Origin: Caldanaerobius polysaccharolyticus DSM 13641
GTDB taxonomy: Bacteria > Bacillota > Thermoanaerobacteria > Thermoanaerobacterales > Caldanaerobiaceae
Assembly (NCBI RefSeq): GCF_000427425.1
Contig: NZ_KE386494.1
Span: 584,545-648,544, forward strand
DNA length: 64,000 nt
Direction of reading: 5' to 3'
Below, piece after piece: positions 2,321 to 8,460 of the stretch. The translations under genes were made by a program, and so were the position numbers. Within the stretch, counting starts at the first letter, position 1. Every line of letters starts with the position of its first letter. Below the pieces are notes generated by a model that saw only the letters and a list, made by a program, of their open reading frames with translations, ran no database searches and had not been told where the DNA came from.

Positions 2321-2350
2321 ATTATATCATAACGCAGAGGGATTTGACAA
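2321..2350 (-). promoter_or_regulatory. Promoter of the aroF-tyrA-aroA operon
   Basis: TTGTCA (2345-2350), an 18-base spacer and TATAAT (2321-2326) on the minus strand. The -35 box lies inside the 3' end of thiT. The leader of about 105 bases before aroF holds a short inverted repeat but no riboswitch or T-box that I recognise. Confidence 0.6.
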
Positions 2351-2965
2351 AACTTTTATCGCCCTCTTTACCTGGGGAATAGCGTATACCACTAGACAGA
2401 TAACCAGCTCAGGCCCTATTACAGTAGCATTGTATACCAGTGAATAGTAAACCGGGTTCATTCCTTTAGGAGCATACGATGCAAAAAACACAAAGCCTGA
2501 TATAAAATGGAATACAAACCTTCCTACGCCTCCTGCTACTATACCCAAGGGTAGATTCTTTTTAAAAAAACCCGCTATCCCCAGCGCGCCAAATGCCAAA
2601 GGATAATCCAATAAAAGTTGAGCCCAGTGTACCACAAAAGCGTCCTGTATCAGCTGCAAAAAGCCATAAGCCACTCCCGCTGTTATACCCGCCGCTGGTC
2701 CAAAAGCATACGCGTAGATAAAAAGAGGAAGCATGCTGGCAGGGGTGATCGTACCCCCTTGAGGCATATGATATAGCCTTACATACGATAATACAAAAGA
2801 TATGGCTATACTCAAGCCACCGTATACAATGGTCCTTGTATCGTATCTCCTTTTCTTGCCCCTTACATAAAAGATTAAAACCACTACCAACACCACAACG
2901 AGAGCCGCAATGGTGATCGCTTTTATCTTGGCAAAATCGCTGAAAACACCTACGAGATACTTCAT
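2327..2965 (-). CDS. thiT: Energy-coupled thiamine transporter ThiT (ECF S component)
   Basis: Integral membrane thiamine-binding subunit of an ECF-type importer; the shared EcfA/EcfT energising module is not in the window. The 212-residue protein has about six hydrophobic segments. A conserved-looking block around residues 70-115 contains GGTITPASMLPLFIYA and GFLQLIQDAFVVHWAQ, which matches the ThiT/YuaJ family. The ATG at 2965 has AGGGGG eight bases upstream. Family placement is supported by the TPP riboswitch directly in front, so it is expected to be off when thiamine pyrophosphate is plentiful. Monocistronic as far as can be seen; aroF downstream has its own promoter. Confidence 0.88.
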   Translation of the reverse strand: MKYLVGVFSDFAKIKAITIAALVVVLVVVLIFYVRGKKRRYDTRTIVYGGLSIAISFVLSYVRLYHMPQGGTITPASMLPLFIYAYAFGPAAGITAGVAYGFLQLIQDAFVVHWAQLLLDYPLAFGALGIAGFFKKNLPLGIVAGGVGRFVFHFISGFVFFASYAPKGMNPVYYSLVYNATVIGPELVICLVVYAIPQVKRAIKVLSNPSAL

Positions 2966-2970
2966 TAAAA

Positions 2971-3016
2971 AATACCCCCTTTGTCTTCGCCACAGGGAGT
3001 ATTTGCAGAATACTCC
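2971..3016 (-). promoter_or_regulatory. Expression platform of the TPP riboswitch
   Basis: On the minus strand GGAGTATT (3016-3009) can pair with AATACTCC (3003-2996). The same 3' arm, read on as AATACTCCC (3003-2995), is also complementary to GGGGGTATT (2979-2971), which contains the thiT ribosome site. The 5' arm shares two bases with the aptamer P1 stem. These mutually exclusive pairings suggest translational control by sequestering the ribosome site. No U-run follows, which argues against a terminator. Confidence 0.55.
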
Positions 3017-3100
3017 GCACTCCCTACGCCAGCATTAACTGACAGGTTCAAAGGGTCTACGCCCTAACGGCGTACTCTCAGCAAAAAGCTCCCCTGGCGG
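3015..3100 (-). promoter_or_regulatory. TPP riboswitch aptamer (THI element)
   Basis: On the minus strand all conserved blocks are present in order: the AGGGGAGC entry, CTGAGA (3081-3076), ACCCTTTGAACCTG (3056-3043), AATGCTGGCGTAGGGA, and a closing P1 of CCGC with GCGG (3100-3097 and 3018-3015). It lies directly upstream of thiT, as is common for this class. Confidence 0.95.
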
Positions 3101-3121
3101 ATGATGATTTTGTTTTACACC

Positions 3122-3164: not shown

Positions 3165-3193
3165 TTGACCCTAAAATCGCAAAAGTATATACT
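3165..3193 (+). promoter_or_regulatory. Promoter of dmkA
   Basis: TTGACC (3165-3170), 17 bases, TATACT (3188-3193). The predicted start near 3200 leaves a leader of only about 15 bases, just enough for the GGGAGGAG ribosome site at 3201-3208. This fixes the dmkA start at 3215, not at the upstream in-frame ATG at 3101. It is back to back with the thiT promoter. Confidence 0.75.
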
Positions 3194-3214
3194 TACCTTG
3201 GGGAGGAGATCTCT

Positions 3215-4138
3215 ATGAGCAAATCAGAATTTCGCAGGCTCTGGAACGGATTCTGGCAGTTGGCAGATCCTAAAATATGGATAGCATCCACAGTCCCTAT
3301 GGCAGTAGCTGGTGCATACGCCTATGGCCAAACAGGTCGATTCAGCCTCTTGTGGTTCGCTGTATCTGTGATAGGCATATACCTGATTGAAATAGGCAAA
3401 AACGCCCTCAATGAAATTGTGGACTATGAATCAGGGGTAGACCGTTTTATAAAGCCTGAAAACACAACTCCTTTTAGCGGAGGTAAAAAAACTATTGTCC
3501 AAGGCAAATTAACCGTAAAAGAGGTTAAAGTTATAGCACTTTTGACCATGCTAGCAGCGTGCGCTATAGGGCTTATCATAGTGCTTTTTCGTGAACCATC
3601 CGTAATATGGATAGGCATTTCAGGTGTTCTAATATCAGCTTTTTACAGCATACCACCTTTCAAGCTGTGTTACAACGGCCTTGGCGAAATAGCCGTAGGG
3701 GTAACTTTCGGGCCTTTAATCACATCGGGTATGTACCTGGTTTTAACTCATCAACTGAATACATACGTGTTGCTGCTATCATTGCCCATAGGCTTTTTAG
3801 TGACGAATATCCTGTGGATAAATCAGTTTCCCGACTACGAAGCAGATGCTAAAGGCCATAAGTACAATTGGCTGGTGCGCTTAGGCAAGAAAAAAGGGGT
3901 AAAGGTCTACGCAACACTGTACATTGCAACATACATATCACTTATAGTATTGAGCGTCGTAGGTAAAAATCCCCTATGGCTTTTAGGCTTCATAACCCTG
4001 CCACTGGTTATACAGTCCGTAAATATAGCTAACAAATTCTACGACGACATACCTAGGTTAATAAGAGCTAACGCTAAAACCGTCCAGGTATATCAGATAA
4101 CAGGGCTTGCAATGGTAATAATTTCGCTGCTAGTTTAA
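3215..4138 (+). CDS. dmkA: UbiA-family prenyltransferase, DmkA-like (1,4-dihydroxy-2-naphthoate polyprenyltransferase)
   Basis: Membrane prenyltransferase expected to attach a polyprenyl chain to DHNA, giving demethylmenaquinone. The 307-residue product has eight or nine hydrophobic segments. Both UbiA aspartate motifs are visible: NEIVDYESGVD (residues 66-76) and NQFPDYEADAKGHKYN in the middle of the protein; these bind prenyl diphosphate through magnesium. Context separates it from an ordinary menA: it faces thiT, is followed by an FMN-binding lipoprotein, and shares a locus with ndh2, eetA, eetB and dmkB, as in the Listeria EET locus. Other men genes are not in the window, so the DHNA source is unknown. 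Exact substrate is an inference. Confidence 0.82.
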   Translation: MSKSEFRRLWNGFWQLADPKIWIASTVPMAVAGAYAYGQTGRFSLLWFAVSVIGIYLIEIGKNALNEIVDYESGVDRFIKPENTTPFSGGKKTIVQGKLTVKEVKVIALLTMLAACAIGLIIVLFREPSVIWIGISGVLISAFYSIPPFKLCYNGLGEIAVGVTFGPLITSGMYLVLTHQLNTYVLLLSLPIGFLVTNILWINQFPDYEADAKGHKYNWLVRLGKKKGVKVYATLYIATYISLIVLSVVGKNPLWLLGFITLPLVIQSVNIANKFYDDIPRLIRANAKTVQVYQITGLAMVIISLLV

Positions 4139-4139
4139 G

Positions 4140-4168
4140 TTGATATTATTTTAACGACGTGATATAAT
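4140..4168 (+). promoter_or_regulatory. Promoter of the FMN-binding lipoprotein gene
   Basis: TTGATA (4140-4145), 17 bases, TATAAT (4163-4168). The -35 box starts two bases after the dmkA stop codon, so the lipoprotein gene has its own, probably stronger, promoter. Confidence 0.75.
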
Positions 4169-4211
4169 AATGTTAACACAAAATTCATATTTTAGCAGAG
4201 GGGAGAATTTT

Positions 4212-4628
4212 ATGAAAAAAGTTGTGGCCATAGCTTTGTCAGGGATAGTAGCCGCCTTCATTTTTTCCGGCTGTTCTACTAAAAGCGCCAGCGGAACCTA
4301 TAAAGACGGCACATATAAAGCAGAGCAATCTGCTTTTGACAGCCACGGCTGGAAAGGGCAGATAGAGATCACTGTAAAAGGCGGCAAAATCACCAACGTA
4401 GTTTACAACGAGGTGGATAAAAATGGCAATCTCAAAAGAAACGACCAACAGTACGCTGAAAAAATGAAAGCAAAAAACAATATAACTCCTAAAGAAGTAG
4501 ACGAAAAGTTACAACAGCAGTTAGTAGATAAACAAGACCCGTCTAAAGTAGACACGGTTACAGGAGCTACTGAATCGTCCAAGACTTTCAAAGAATTAGC
4601 CACAGAAGCCTTAAATAATGCAAAATGA
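4212..4628 (+). CDS. FMN-binding-domain lipoprotein, PplA-like electron carrier
   Basis: Probably a cell-surface flavin-carrying lipoprotein and the last redox carrier of the EET chain. The 138-residue protein has a lipoprotein signal peptide ending in FSGC (Cys21). One FMN-binding domain follows (about residues 30-135). The motif DTVTGAT (residues 114-120) is the site at which ApbE-type transferases attach FMN to threonine, here Thr120. Listeria PplA has two such domains; this one has a single domain. The ATG at 4212 follows GAGGGGAGAA; the longer frame from 4170 overlaps its own promoter region and has no ribosome site. No ApbE gene is in the window. Other FMN-binding surface reductase roles are possible. 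Confidence 0.82.
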   Translation: MKKVVAIALSGIVAAFIFSGCSTKSASGTYKDGTYKAEQSAFDSHGWKGQIEITVKGGKITNVVYNEVDKNGNLKRNDQQYAEKMKAKNNITPKEVDEKLQQQLVDKQDPSKVDTVTGATESSKTFKELATEALNNAK

Positions 4629-4631
4629 CAA

Positions 4632-4670
4632 AAAGGGCATCCTAAGTAATGGGATGCTCTTTATTGTTTT
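4632..4670. terminator. Bidirectional terminator between the FMN lipoprotein gene and dmkB
   Basis: GGGCATCC pairs with GGGATGCTC across an eight-base loop. T-rich tails lie on both sides (TTTATTGTTTT on plus, TTTTTGTC on minus). It ends both converging transcripts of the EET locus. Confidence 0.8.
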
Positions 4671-5637
4671 AATATGCTCTGTGGAGAAGCTTTTCTGCTA
4701 CCTCAGTCAGCACCTGTTTGCTGGGGCATTCCTTTAAAGAGGATATTTTGTTAAAGGCTTTTTTAGTATATCTTCTAGCCAACTCTCGAGCTTGTTCTAT
4801 TCCACCTGCTTGTCGGGCAAATTCAATTAACTTTTTTACTTCGCATTCGTCATAAGACCTTTTTTGGAGGATAGGGGTTATTTCTTCTCTCTCGCCCTTC
4901 TGCAGTGCGTAAATCAGAGGCAGGGTAAAAATGCCTTGTCGAATATCATTGCCTAACGGCTTGCCCACTACCACTTCATTACCTGTATAATCCAGGATAT
5001 CGTCGATTATTTGAAAGGCCATCCCTATATTGTAGCCTATACTGGCCAGCGTCCTAGATAAACGTTCATCGCAATTGCTCTCGTGCGCACCTATATAAAA
5101 GCTCAAGGCAAAGAGAACAGCTGTTTTCGCAGCTATCCTCTTTAAATACTGAGTAACCGTTATGTTGACATCGTACTGGCTCTCAAATTGTTCAATCTCG
5201 CCTTTACATATTCTAGACACCGCTTTGGACACTTTTTTAATGTCTTTTACAGCAATGCTATCAGACAGGAGCAAAAAGCATTGACAGAATAAAAAATCGC
5301 CAATAAACACCGCATAATTTTTGCCATACTCTGCCTGAATAGTAGGTTTACTTCGCCTTATCAATGCGTTATCTATTATATCGTCGTGGATAAGGGTAGC
5401 CATATGAAGCATCTCAATCATAGCCGCCAATGAGCACAGCTTTTTTCTTTCATACTTACCAAATCTCCCTGCCAGAACCACAAAGCCAGGGCGAATCATC
5501 TTTCCTCCAGCGTGGATCATATCCAATAGCACATCTCTGATCAATTTATTGCCATTGCTTACACACTTCTCTATCATCCTTCTAACTTCTTCAAGATCCT
5601 TCTGTATATCGGGATAGTCACTCCAAAATTTATCCAT
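4669..5637 (-). CDS. dmkB: Polyprenyl diphosphate synthase, DmkB-like (HepT family)
   Basis: Elongates allylic diphosphate with isopentenyl diphosphate to make the quinone side chain. The 322-residue protein has both aspartate-rich motifs of trans-prenyltransferases: HDDIIDNALIRR (first, near residues 87-98) and QIIDDILDYTG (second). It also has GGKMIRPGFV near the N-terminus. In this context it would supply the prenyl donor for DmkA. It is the last gene of the ndh2-eetA-eetB-dmkB transcript, 13 bases after eetB. Chain length cannot be read with confidence. A role in general menaquinone or carrier-lipid synthesis is the alternative. Confidence 0.88.
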   Translation of the reverse strand: MDKFWSDYPDIQKDLEEVRRMIEKCVSNGNKLIRDVLLDMIHAGGKMIRPGFVVLAGRFGKYERKKLCSLAAMIEMLHMATLIHDDIIDNALIRRSKPTIQAEYGKNYAVFIGDFLFCQCFLLLSDSIAVKDIKKVSKAVSRICKGEIEQFESQYDVNITVTQYLKRIAAKTAVLFALSFYIGAHESNCDERLSRTLASIGYNIGMAFQIIDDILDYTGNEVVVGKPLGNDIRQGIFTLPLIYALQKGEREEITPILQKRSYDECEVKKLIEFARQAGGIEQARELARRYTKKAFNKISSLKECPSKQVLTEVAEKLLHRAY

Positions 5638-5650
5638 TAAATCACCTTGT

Positions 5651-6205
5651 TCAGTATGGATTTAGATTCTTTAATTTTTTCCAGTGATCCAATATAAATT
5701 TAGCAGACAACCCTACAAAAATACCTGTTCCTATACCCGCTATCATCAAAACGGGAACATAAGCCATTATGTTGATATTTTGCAATATCAGGGAAGCCAC
5801 AGCCATCTGGCCGATATTGTGAAATACAGCTCCTGCCATACTCACCCCGATCTCGCTTACGCTCTCTCCCCCAACGGTTTTCACAATATACATGGCCACA
5901 AGGCTTAAAAAGCCGCCACCTATGCTGTAAAAAAAAGAAGAGGGCGACGCGGCAAAAAACGCGGACAAAAGTATCCTCACCCCTATTACCACAAGGGTGT
6001 TGTAAAAGCCAAATAAATAAAGGGATATCACCGTCACTATGTTGGCAAGGCCCAATTTGGCACCAGGGGCAATAAAAGGAACAGGAATCATGCACTCTAC
6101 GATGTACAAAGCCAGTGAATTAGCCACTAATATGGCTAAAAAAACCATCCTTCGAGTGGTCGATATGGATTTGCGATCAATATACGACCTGGTCGACTTG
6201 GTCAT
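5651..6205 (-). CDS. eetB: Gx transporter family membrane protein, EetB-like
   Basis: A 184-residue integral membrane protein with about five hydrophobic segments. It belongs to the family often annotated as heptaprenyl diphosphate synthase component I or Gx transporter (COG4769), visible in the segments PFIAPGAKLGLANIVTV and ILLSAFFAASPSSFFYSIGGG. In Listeria the homologous EetB is needed for extracellular electron transfer; its chemistry is not settled. The ATG at 6205 has AAAGGTG six bases upstream and is preferred to the GTG at 6214, which overlaps that site. It overlaps the end of eetA by 29 bases, suggesting coupled synthesis with EetA. Confidence 0.83.
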   Translation of the reverse strand: MTKSTRSYIDRKSISTTRRMVFLAILVANSLALYIVECMIPVPFIAPGAKLGLANIVTVISLYLFGFYNTLVVIGVRILLSAFFAASPSSFFYSIGGGFLSLVAMYIVKTVGGESVSEIGVSMAGAVFHNIGQMAVASLILQNINIMAYVPVLMIAGIGTGIFVGLSAKFILDHWKKLKNLNPY

Positions 6206-6557
6206 TTTTTTCACCTTTTATCTCTATTACTATACGAAATGGCAAACACACAATGCTTTGCCCTGGCTTATCAATAAAGCCTTCTTTAATACATATTTTG
6301 TCAGGGCATTCGGCGTAAATGACTTTTACCCCACCATCCTTAACCATTAACACGTCTTTGCCGTACCTTGTAACTATAGGGATCTCCTGCTGGTAGCTAG
6401 CATCGTCCAGGGAAACCTCTTTGTAAAACTTGCCGTCCACTGTTATAACGGCGTATTTATGACCGTAATGGCGGCCTGAGGTCATCCTGTAAAAGCCCAG
6501 CAAGCTTACAGATAAAATCGCCAGAAAAAGCATCACGACGATATCGCCTTTTTTCAC
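6177..6557 (-). CDS. eetA: NusG domain II-containing membrane-anchored protein, EetA-like
   Basis: A 126-residue protein with one N-terminal membrane anchor (residues 7-26) and an extracytoplasmic NusG domain II-type beta domain (about residues 34-115). The domain includes the segment AECPDKICIKEGFIDKPGQ with its two cysteines. In the Listeria EET locus EetA has this architecture and acts with EetB between the quinone pool and the surface flavin; the detailed role is unknown. Start is GTG at 6557 with GAAGG eight bases upstream. It lies 24 bases after ndh2 and overlaps eetB. Confidence 0.85.
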   Translation of the reverse strand: MKKGDIVVMLFLAILSVSLLGFYRMTSGRHYGHKYAVITVDGKFYKEVSLDDASYQQEIPIVTRYGKDVLMVKDGGVKVIYAECPDKICIKEGFIDKPGQSIVCLPFRIVIEIKGEKNDQVDQVVY

Positions 6558-6581
6558 CTAAACGCCTTCTTTCCCATCGCT

Positions 6582-8372
6582 TTAACTGACGTATAGATAC
6601 GTCTTTCTGGCAAAGGGAGTCCTGGCCCACCAGTTTTTTATCCACGGTATCACATAGTAATCCAACCCGCACGCTCTCCCTGCTCCACCCATAAGGGCAA
6701 TAGCCGCAAATATATACCACAGTATCGACTTGTCTGCCATCGCAGAGAGGATAAAGTTCAGCGCAAGGAATATAGATCCCGCCGACGCCAGCACGGTAAA
6801 CAATCCTGCTATCAGCGCCAAACCTATAGCCACTTCTGTCATCACTACCATAGCCTGGAATACAAAGGCATGGGGCGCTACAAAGGTATCCATAAACCAT
6901 TTGTAAACAGCCGGAGGCTGTTTTAACAATGGCTGCACCGTCTGCACTGTATTTGCAGCCTCACCAGCCTTGGCCGTAGCTCCTGATACGTCTGATGTGC
7001 TTATGATAAATATCTTTGAAGGATTAAGCCAACCTTGCTGTATCTTGCTTATCCCCTCAATAAGCCACAACGCACCCACATATATCCTTAGGCATACCAA
7101 CCATAGTATAGGCATTCTAGCTGCCACATGACCCCCCAACAGCGATCGATTGCCTTTAATCTCAAAGAACTCGTGCATGATATAAGATAAAACAGCGTTA
7201 AGACCCGCCACCCCAAATAAATAATGCATATTTACTAGATGCTTCATGGCCATAGCTAAAAAACCTGACAGCGATACGCCCATCAATTCTGCCACTGCAT
7301 ACCTGCTGCCCAAAGACACCATAAACCCATGGTAATTTGGCTTAAAAGGCTTTTTGGAATCGCCATTCATATCCGCTATTATGTTGTGAACAGCGGTTTC
7401 TGCGGTCTGCAGCGCGGTTTCCACAACCTGTGGAGCAGGTTTGCCTTCGTGTTCACAATAAGCCACATCGCCTATTACATATACATTCTCTTTTCCCGCC
7501 GCCTGCATGTACTCATTGGTCTGTATTCTATATCTCTTATTCAGCTCCAACCCAAAGTTTTCAGCACACCTGTTTCCCTGGACTCCACACGTCCATATAA
7601 GGGTTTTTGTCTCTATCCTATTTCCGTCTTTTAGCACCACATAGCCTTCGTTTACTTCAGTTATAGCGCAATTGGTTAGAATTTTTACTCCCTGCTTGGT
7701 TAGGTATTTAAACGCCTTGGCTGCCAGCTTCTGGTTTAAGTTAGGCAGTATGTTACCTAGTGCCTCCACAACCATAACTTTTACATCGCCGCGATCTATA
7801 TGGTATTTAGTGCATAAATCTCGTGTCCATTCCGCCAGTTCACCCGCGGTCTCTATTCCGGTAAACCCTGCACCTGCCACTACAAAAGTAAGCAGTTTCT
7901 TTCTCTTCTCCACATCTTCTTCCACACTGGCTTTTCTGAACATTTCCTCAATATGTTCTCTGGTCTTAGTCGCCGATTCCAGCGATCCTACTGTAAAACC
8001 GTACTCAAATACACCAGGTACGCCAAAGTCACAGGGCTCACTGCCCACAGCGATGATCAGATAGTCATAACCGTACTGCCCTGCTTTACCGATTACTAGC
8101 TGCATTTCATAATCAACTTTCTCTACTTCATCAGTTATTACATTTACTTTTTTACCTGCAAAGATCTTATGCAGATACACGCAGACGCTATCAGGCTCCA
8201 GTCTCGCGCCAGCCACCTCGTGTAGATCCGTCACCAACGTGTGATAAGGTTTTTTATCGATGAGGGTTATTTCAACGCCTTCTTCCTTCTTAAGTTTCCT
8301 GTTTAACAGCTTGGCAGCATGTACACCTCCGTACCCGGCGCCAACGATTACAATCCTTTTATTACGACTCAT
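6582..8372 (-). CDS. ndh2: Type II NADH dehydrogenase fused to a C-terminal DoxX-like membrane domain (Ndh2)
   Basis: Oxidises NADH through FAD and reduces membrane quinone without pumping protons. The 596-residue protein has an FAD site near the N-terminus (VGAGYGG, residues 10-16), an NADH site (VAGAGFTGIETAGE, about 165-178) and the late FAD segment VYVIGDVAY (about 297-305). Usual NDH-2 enzymes end near residue 400. Here about 200 more residues follow, with four or five membrane segments and an extracytoplasmic loop, resembling DoxX. This extension matches the Ndh2 of EET loci. The ATG at 8372 follows GGAGG by eight bases; the GTG at 8387 overlaps that site. First gene of ndh2-eetA-eetB-dmkB. 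Confidence 0.87.
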   Translation of the reverse strand: MSRNKRIVIVGAGYGGVHAAKLLNRKLKKEEGVEITLIDKKPYHTLVTDLHEVAGARLEPDSVCVYLHKIFAGKKVNVITDEVEKVDYEMQLVIGKAGQYGYDYLIIAVGSEPCDFGVPGVFEYGFTVGSLESATKTREHIEEMFRKASVEEDVEKRKKLLTFVVAGAGFTGIETAGELAEWTRDLCTKYHIDRGDVKVMVVEALGNILPNLNQKLAAKAFKYLTKQGVKILTNCAITEVNEGYVVLKDGNRIETKTLIWTCGVQGNRCAENFGLELNKRYRIQTNEYMQAAGKENVYVIGDVAYCEHEGKPAPQVVETALQTAETAVHNIIADMNGDSKKPFKPNYHGFMVSLGSRYAVAELMGVSLSGFLAMAMKHLVNMHYLFGVAGLNAVLSYIMHEFFEIKGNRSLLGGHVAARMPILWLVCLRIYVGALWLIEGISKIQQGWLNPSKIFIISTSDVSGATAKAGEAANTVQTVQPLLKQPPAVYKWFMDTFVAPHAFVFQAMVVMTEVAIGLALIAGLFTVLASAGSIFLALNFILSAMADKSILWYIFAAIALMGGAGRACGLDYYVIPWIKNWWARTPFARKTYLYVS

Positions 8373-8404
8373 ACTCTCCGCCTCCACCCTTTGAAAATCC
8401 CCTG

Positions 8405-8460
8405 TTTGTCTATACTTTCACAATTATTCTATTACAAAAATATTTATTTGTCTATACTTT
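8405..8460. repeat. Direct repeat flanking the ndh2 promoter
   Basis: The 14-base word AAAGTATAGACAAA occurs twice on the minus strand, at 8405-8418 and 8447-8460, 42 bases apart, close to four helical turns. One copy covers the -35 box, the other lies in the leader just after the -10 box. A pair of regulator sites is a reasonable guess; the regulator is unknown. Confidence 0.5.
8426..8454 (-). promoter_or_regulatory. Probable promoter of ndh2-eetA-eetB-dmkB
   Basis: TAGACA (8449-8454), 17 bases, TAGAAT (8426-8431). Both boxes deviate from consensus by one or two bases, so the promoter may depend on an activator. Confidence 0.5.

Follow-up and report, generated by a model that had tools for sequence, protein, structure and literature searches.

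Six genes of Caldanaerobius polysaccharolyticus had been annotated as a compact locus for extracellular electron transfer (EET), and they raise two questions: whether this locus is a Listeria-type electron-export system, and what the quinone source would be in a bacterium with prenyltransferases yet no quinone-ring synthesis. A literature search found no papers on EET genes in Caldanaerobius. The window analyzed here is a stretch of 64,000 nucleotides (C2:584545-648544) of a 2.5 Mb genome in three contigs (96% complete), which shares its order, though not its family, with Thermoanaerobacter. We propose that the locus is quite probably a Listeria-type flavin-based EET (FLEET) locus, with an unlinked ApbE and a quinone head group that is probably scavenged.

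The genes dmkA, pplA, dmkB, eetB, eetA and ndh2 lie within window positions 3215-8387 and are all intact, none being broken, and the span 3165-8454 has the promoter-like sites of dmkA and ndh2 at its two ends. The features are as follows (window coordinates, strand, identity):

3165..3193, plus strand: dmkA promoter-like site (10/12 match)
3215..4138, plus strand: dmkA, UbiA/MenA-type prenyltransferase (Pfam UbiA; identity to copies in relatives' EET loci)
4140..4168, plus strand: pplA promoter-like site, TTGATA-17-TATAAT with TG (11/12 match)
4212..4628, plus strand: pplA-like lipoprotein gene, one FMN-binding domain (FMN_bind, PplA model)
4632..4662, no strand: hairpin terminator common to both converging units (-21.1 kcal/mol, z -6.1)
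4669..5637, minus strand: dmkB, long-chain polyprenyl diphosphate synthase, HepT type (Pfam polyprenyl_synt, TIGR02748)
5651..6214, minus strand: eetB, PF07456 membrane protein (Pfam; AlphaFold model matching RibU)
6177..6557, minus strand: eetA, membrane-anchored NusG_II/DUF1312 domain (PF07009)
6582..8387, minus strand: ndh2, type II NADH dehydrogenase with DoxD-like membrane domain (likely start ATG 8372)
8426..8454, minus strand: ndh2 promoter-like site, TAGACA-17-TAGAAT (-35 conserved in relatives)

Two converging units, dmkA-pplA (+) and ndh2-eetA-eetB-dmkB (-), meet at the single strong hairpin, and the eetA and eetB genes overlap. The initial annotation had described two transcripts ending on one terminator and a six-gene Listeria-like core; both descriptions stand, with every gene present and intact in the order claimed and with family matches far beyond chance. 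The locus is bordered by corA and by the thiamine transporter gene thiT (window 2327-3105, minus strand), which lies behind a TPP riboswitch (61.8 bits) and directly precedes dmkA on the opposite strand. An exact 14-base direct repeat, TTTGTCTATACTTT, flanks the ndh2 promoter (window 8405-8418 and 8447-8460); one copy contains the -35 that is conserved in relatives, and the other, just downstream of the -10, is missing from the sister species. The repeat is a possible operator.

Sequence comparison with Listeria proteins was made for FmnB alone, via the PDB, and the remaining genes were assigned by family and relatives. Ndh2 matches Pyr_redox_2 (4e-46) and carries in addition a DoxD-type C-terminal membrane domain. 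EetA matches PF07009 (3.5e-32), the EetA family, and EetB matches PF07456 (1.6e-46), the EetB family. DmkA matches Pfam UbiA (8.6e-31), has intact Asp-rich motifs and is 69-85% identical to copies in the EET loci of relatives; MenA models reach up to 122 bits, under their cut-offs. DmkB matches Pfam polyprenyl_synt (1.6e-68) and TIGR02748 (1.4e-85, yet under its cut-off). The lipoprotein, of 138 amino acids and with lipobox FSGC, matches FMN_bind (6e-9) and the PplA model (1e-31), and the DxxTGAT flavinylation motif that had been noted in it reads DTVTGAT. Its single FMN domain, also noted before, is the normal state in the lineage and not a peculiarity, PplA being single-domain in the Thermoanaerobacter and Caldanaerobacter loci. 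PplA sensu stricto (NCBIfam NF041941) is a full two-domain protein of about 300 residues with a 325-bit cut-off, against which the one-domain window protein scores 110 bits; judged by its sequence, the latter is PplA-like and lies outside this exact family. EetA has the NusG domain II/DUF1312 fold, which it shares with proteins of Listeria innocua and Enterococcus that have no assigned function, and its extracytosolic domain holds three invariant cysteines (84, 89 and 104), a possible metal or thiol site.

The family name of EetB opens a different reading, in which ordinary isoprenoid or menaquinone genes lie beside an unrelated lipoprotein, EetB serves as a subunit of heptaprenyl diphosphate synthase, in keeping with the Pfam name of PF07456, and no electrons are exported; a polyprenyl synthase gene does adjoin eetB. 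The AlphaFold model of EetB (pLDDT 80), however, has the fold of an ECF S-component. Its top structural matches are ECF S-components, RibU first (RibU 3p5n, Z 15.0, rmsd 3.0 over 161 residues; TmRibU 5kbw, Z 14.5, rmsd 3.1 over 163), the best unrelated fold is a pMMO subunit (Z 11.2), and Z by itself is indecisive for helical bundles. Listeria EetB (PF07456) is an ECF-S subunit that binds and exports FAD for FmnB, and deletion of eetA in Listeria leaves EET unaffected (Rivera-Lugo et al. 2023, PMC9973259). Since the list of matches is coherent and published biochemistry points the same way, we find the predicted role of EetB as a flavin ECF-S subunit convincing. The S-component fold, FAD export by the Listeria family member and the presence of apbE and pplA in the cluster of relatives largely refute the isoprenoid reading, which we regard as extremely improbable.

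The same evidence bears on flavin supply. It had been remarked that no riboflavin transporter lies beside the locus, and none adjoins it, but no part is missing, because EetB has the RibU-type ECF-S fold and its Listeria homologue exports FAD. A general EcfA/EcfA'/EcfT module adjoins ribosomal protein genes. No dedicated FmnA-type ECF-T was found, the two CbiQ-family genes being the general EcfT and part of a cobalt CbiMNQO-like set; in Listeria, EcfT and FmnA can partly replace each other in import. Lumazine synthase is present in the genome, which suggests that the organism can probably make flavin.

The flavin transferase lies elsewhere. As stated in the initial annotation, no ApbE stands beside the locus, where thiT and corA are the neighbours; a genome search found one ApbE, of FmnB type, at C2 about 810.6-811.6 kb, about 218 kb from ndh2. 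It stands alone between genes named from sequence as gamma-glutamyl-hydrolase-like and release-factor-like. Among PDB structures it matches Listeria FmnB best (7esa and others), at 311 bits, the next reaching 195, and it is 75-78% identical to the copies inside relatives' EET clusters. PplA is the sole FMN_bind protein in the genome by family search, and because ApbE is likewise single, the two are very probably partners, where uniqueness is that of the FMN_bind domain, the one type of ApbE substrate domain covered by the search. One enzyme and one such substrate genome-wide, with the enzyme unlinked, make a simple natural test case.

In the sister species (G001), whose EetA is 84% identical, the layout is inverted exactly as in the window, and apbE adjoins ndh2 in divergent orientation. 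The sequence on the 5' side of the relocated apbE recognisably matches the sister species' apbE promoter region. Given that the sister keeps apbE by ndh2 and that the relocated gene has retained this promoter region, apbE most likely moved away together with its own promoter after the two species split. By this comparison, the locus has recently lost its linkage to apbE and is not a different system. Promoter similarity extends only from apbE to the sister apbE; no motif common to the moved apbE and ndh2 promoters was found, and a shared operator tying the moved gene to the locus was rejected on that ground.

Quinone supply is less straightforward. Genome-wide absences rest on family searches, which gave no MenB above cut-off and no MqnA/D in 24 genomes, and no MenD above cut-off in 41 genomes. 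MenB-like matches in relatives (182 bits against a 343-bit cut-off) were judged to be crotonase relatives, and the MenD-like match from the present genome is an acetolactate-synthase-like protein of full length, whose gene adjoins a dihydroxyacid-dehydratase-like one. The genes for DHNA synthesis that the initial annotation had proposed to look for were thus not found, to the extent that MenB, MenD and MqnA/D mark them. It had also named the absence of both ApbE and quinone synthesis as counting against an EET locus; an ApbE of FmnB type exists, and the quinone markers are indeed absent. As no marker of the DHNA or futalosine pathway was found, the quinone step would need an outside supply, and in a genome without MenB, MenD and MqnA/D the DHNA head group is most likely scavenged from outside. 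In Lactiplantibacillus plantarum, exogenous DHNA is converted to MK-6/7 and is required for EET.

Scavenging is the simplest reading of quinone supply, and its alternative is an undescribed head-group route. The genome encodes two UbiA proteins, for both of which MenA models are best, though under cut-offs. Of its three polyprenyl synthases, one is DmkB, another is also HepT-like and the third is of the short-chain IspA type. The second MenA-like prenyltransferase gene (C2 943016-943915; L062 6017-6916, minus strand) is located near DedA-like and NAD(P)H-oxidoreductase-like genes. Two MenA-like prenyltransferases and two HepT-type synthases beside the IspA type, in a genome lacking MenB, MenD and MqnA/D, would suit a head group made at home, with the prenyltransferases acting on the organism's own aromatic acid. 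Membership of the MenA family does not fix the substrate, however, and L. plantarum already keeps DmkA/MenA without DHNA synthesis and takes up DHNA; we consider home synthesis very unlikely. All EET-type Ndh2 proteins examined here have VExAxQ at the place of AQIAIQ in NDH-2 4nwz, a position that we take to be the quinone-site motif, and their quinone handling may differ from that of 4nwz. It is quite unlikely that Caldanaerobius-like bacteria and Thermoanaerobacter, hosts thought to be plain fermenters, hold an undescribed pathway to an EET-quinone head group, with MenA-like prenyltransferases and HepT-like synthases and without Men or Mqn genes, or that they use a non-naphthoquinone carrier via the altered-motif Ndh2.

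The distribution of the genes among relatives bears on the quinone as well. In the loci of Thermoanaerobacter and Caldanaerobacter (T. wiegelii and C. subterraneus among them) a single strand carries the genes in the order ndh2-eetA-eetB-dmkB-apbE-dmkA-pplA. A close DmkA (at least 69% identity) occurs in 7 of 41 genomes, this one included, and all seven have a close EetA; among the 41, no genome without a close EetA has a DmkA of at least 69%, and one genome (G014) has a close EetA with dmkA missing. In Clostridium, Lutispora and Caldicoprobacter the loci retain ndh2 and, for the most part, eetAB, apbE and dmkB, but a search of about 8 kb around them shows no dmkA. The latter loci, the absent DHNA synthesis markers, the altered NDH-2 quinone motif and the fact that Listeria FmnB also serves fumarate reductase would all fit a flavinylation-dependent envelope redox system in which PplA passes electrons to another envelope protein or to a small soluble acceptor, not to mineral iron or an electrode, and quinone is minor. 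We regard such a system as unlikely, since dmkA and dmkB are kept in the locus along with eetA, and since PplA, as the sole FMN_bind protein in the genome, leaves no flavinylated FrdA-type reductase.

Several of the related loci are damaged. The ndh2 gene is frameshifted in T. wiegelii (L025 8465-8483) and in G014 (L065 5202-5230), at almost identical positions in an A-rich stretch near codon 160, and in T. thermocopriae at another position (L034 9068); dmkB of G014 is also frameshifted. These frameshifts reflect decay, slippage or sequencing error. Judging from the frameshifts in some Thermoanaerobacter and from the loss of dmkA in one genome, the EET trait is dispensable. In C. subterraneus the locus is present a second time in decayed form (G013:C9 38320-39228 and 41753-41890), with a DmkA containing 12 internal stops and an EetA fragment.

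The core reading of the initial annotation, a Listeria-type flavin EET locus, holds on family matches, ApbE, the EetB fold and clustering in relatives, and from these we infer the flow of electrons and flavin, the acceptor and the scavenging. Ndh2 would oxidize cytosolic NADH and pass the electrons into membrane (demethyl)menaquinone, whose tail would be a DmkB product that DmkA attaches, and whose head group (DHNA or a similar naphthoate) would be supplied from outside, as in L. plantarum. EetB, working with the shared EcfT/EcfA/EcfA' module, would export FAD, from which the unlinked lipoprotein ApbE would transfer FMN to Thr120, the threonine of DTVTGAT in PplA. PplA could then reduce soluble or solid outside acceptors, providing a fermenter with an NADH sink. 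Export of electrons to outside iron or flavins by the organism unaided is uncertain without a scavenged quinone.

Finally, we compared the locus with known systems. The Listeria monocytogenes EET locus comprises ndh2, eetA, eetB, dmkA, dmkB, fmnA, fmnB and pplA, and six of these eight lie side by side here. As in Listeria, the genome has an FmnB orthologue, and the EetB fold and PplA motif agree; unlike Listeria, apbE/fmnB is unlinked, fmnA was not found, the PplA-like protein has one FMN domain where the Listeria protein has two, and DHNA synthesis markers are absent. Compared with the Thermoanaerobacter and Caldanaerobacter clusters (L022, L023, L025, L034 and L064), the orthologues are 65-81% identical, with a single-domain PplA and the same ndh2 promoter element, whereas those clusters are one-stranded, include apbE and are frameshifted in several copies. 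L. plantarum likewise has dmkA, ndh2 and pplA and lacks a complete DHNA pathway; its use of exogenous DHNA has been shown, whereas uptake in the present case is predicted. Thermoanaerobacter pseudethanolicus reportedly produces electrode current without Geobacter and Mtr/Omc routes (PMC6497744), for which a candidate explanation, drawn from the loci of other species, is the EET cluster that some Thermoanaerobacter possess intact. The features of FLEET found here are (i) an NDH-2 with an extra membrane domain, (ii) the eetA and eetB pair, (iii) dmkA and dmkB in the locus, (iv) a surface lipoprotein with an ApbE motif and (v) an FmnB-type transferase in the genome, outside the locus. Most differences from Listeria have precedent, the single-domain PplA in relatives and absent DHNA synthesis in L. 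plantarum, and the unlinked apbE is a local rearrangement; the locus adds a thermophilic fermenter of the Thermoanaerobacterales to the range of a known electron-export system, as a largely ordinary example.
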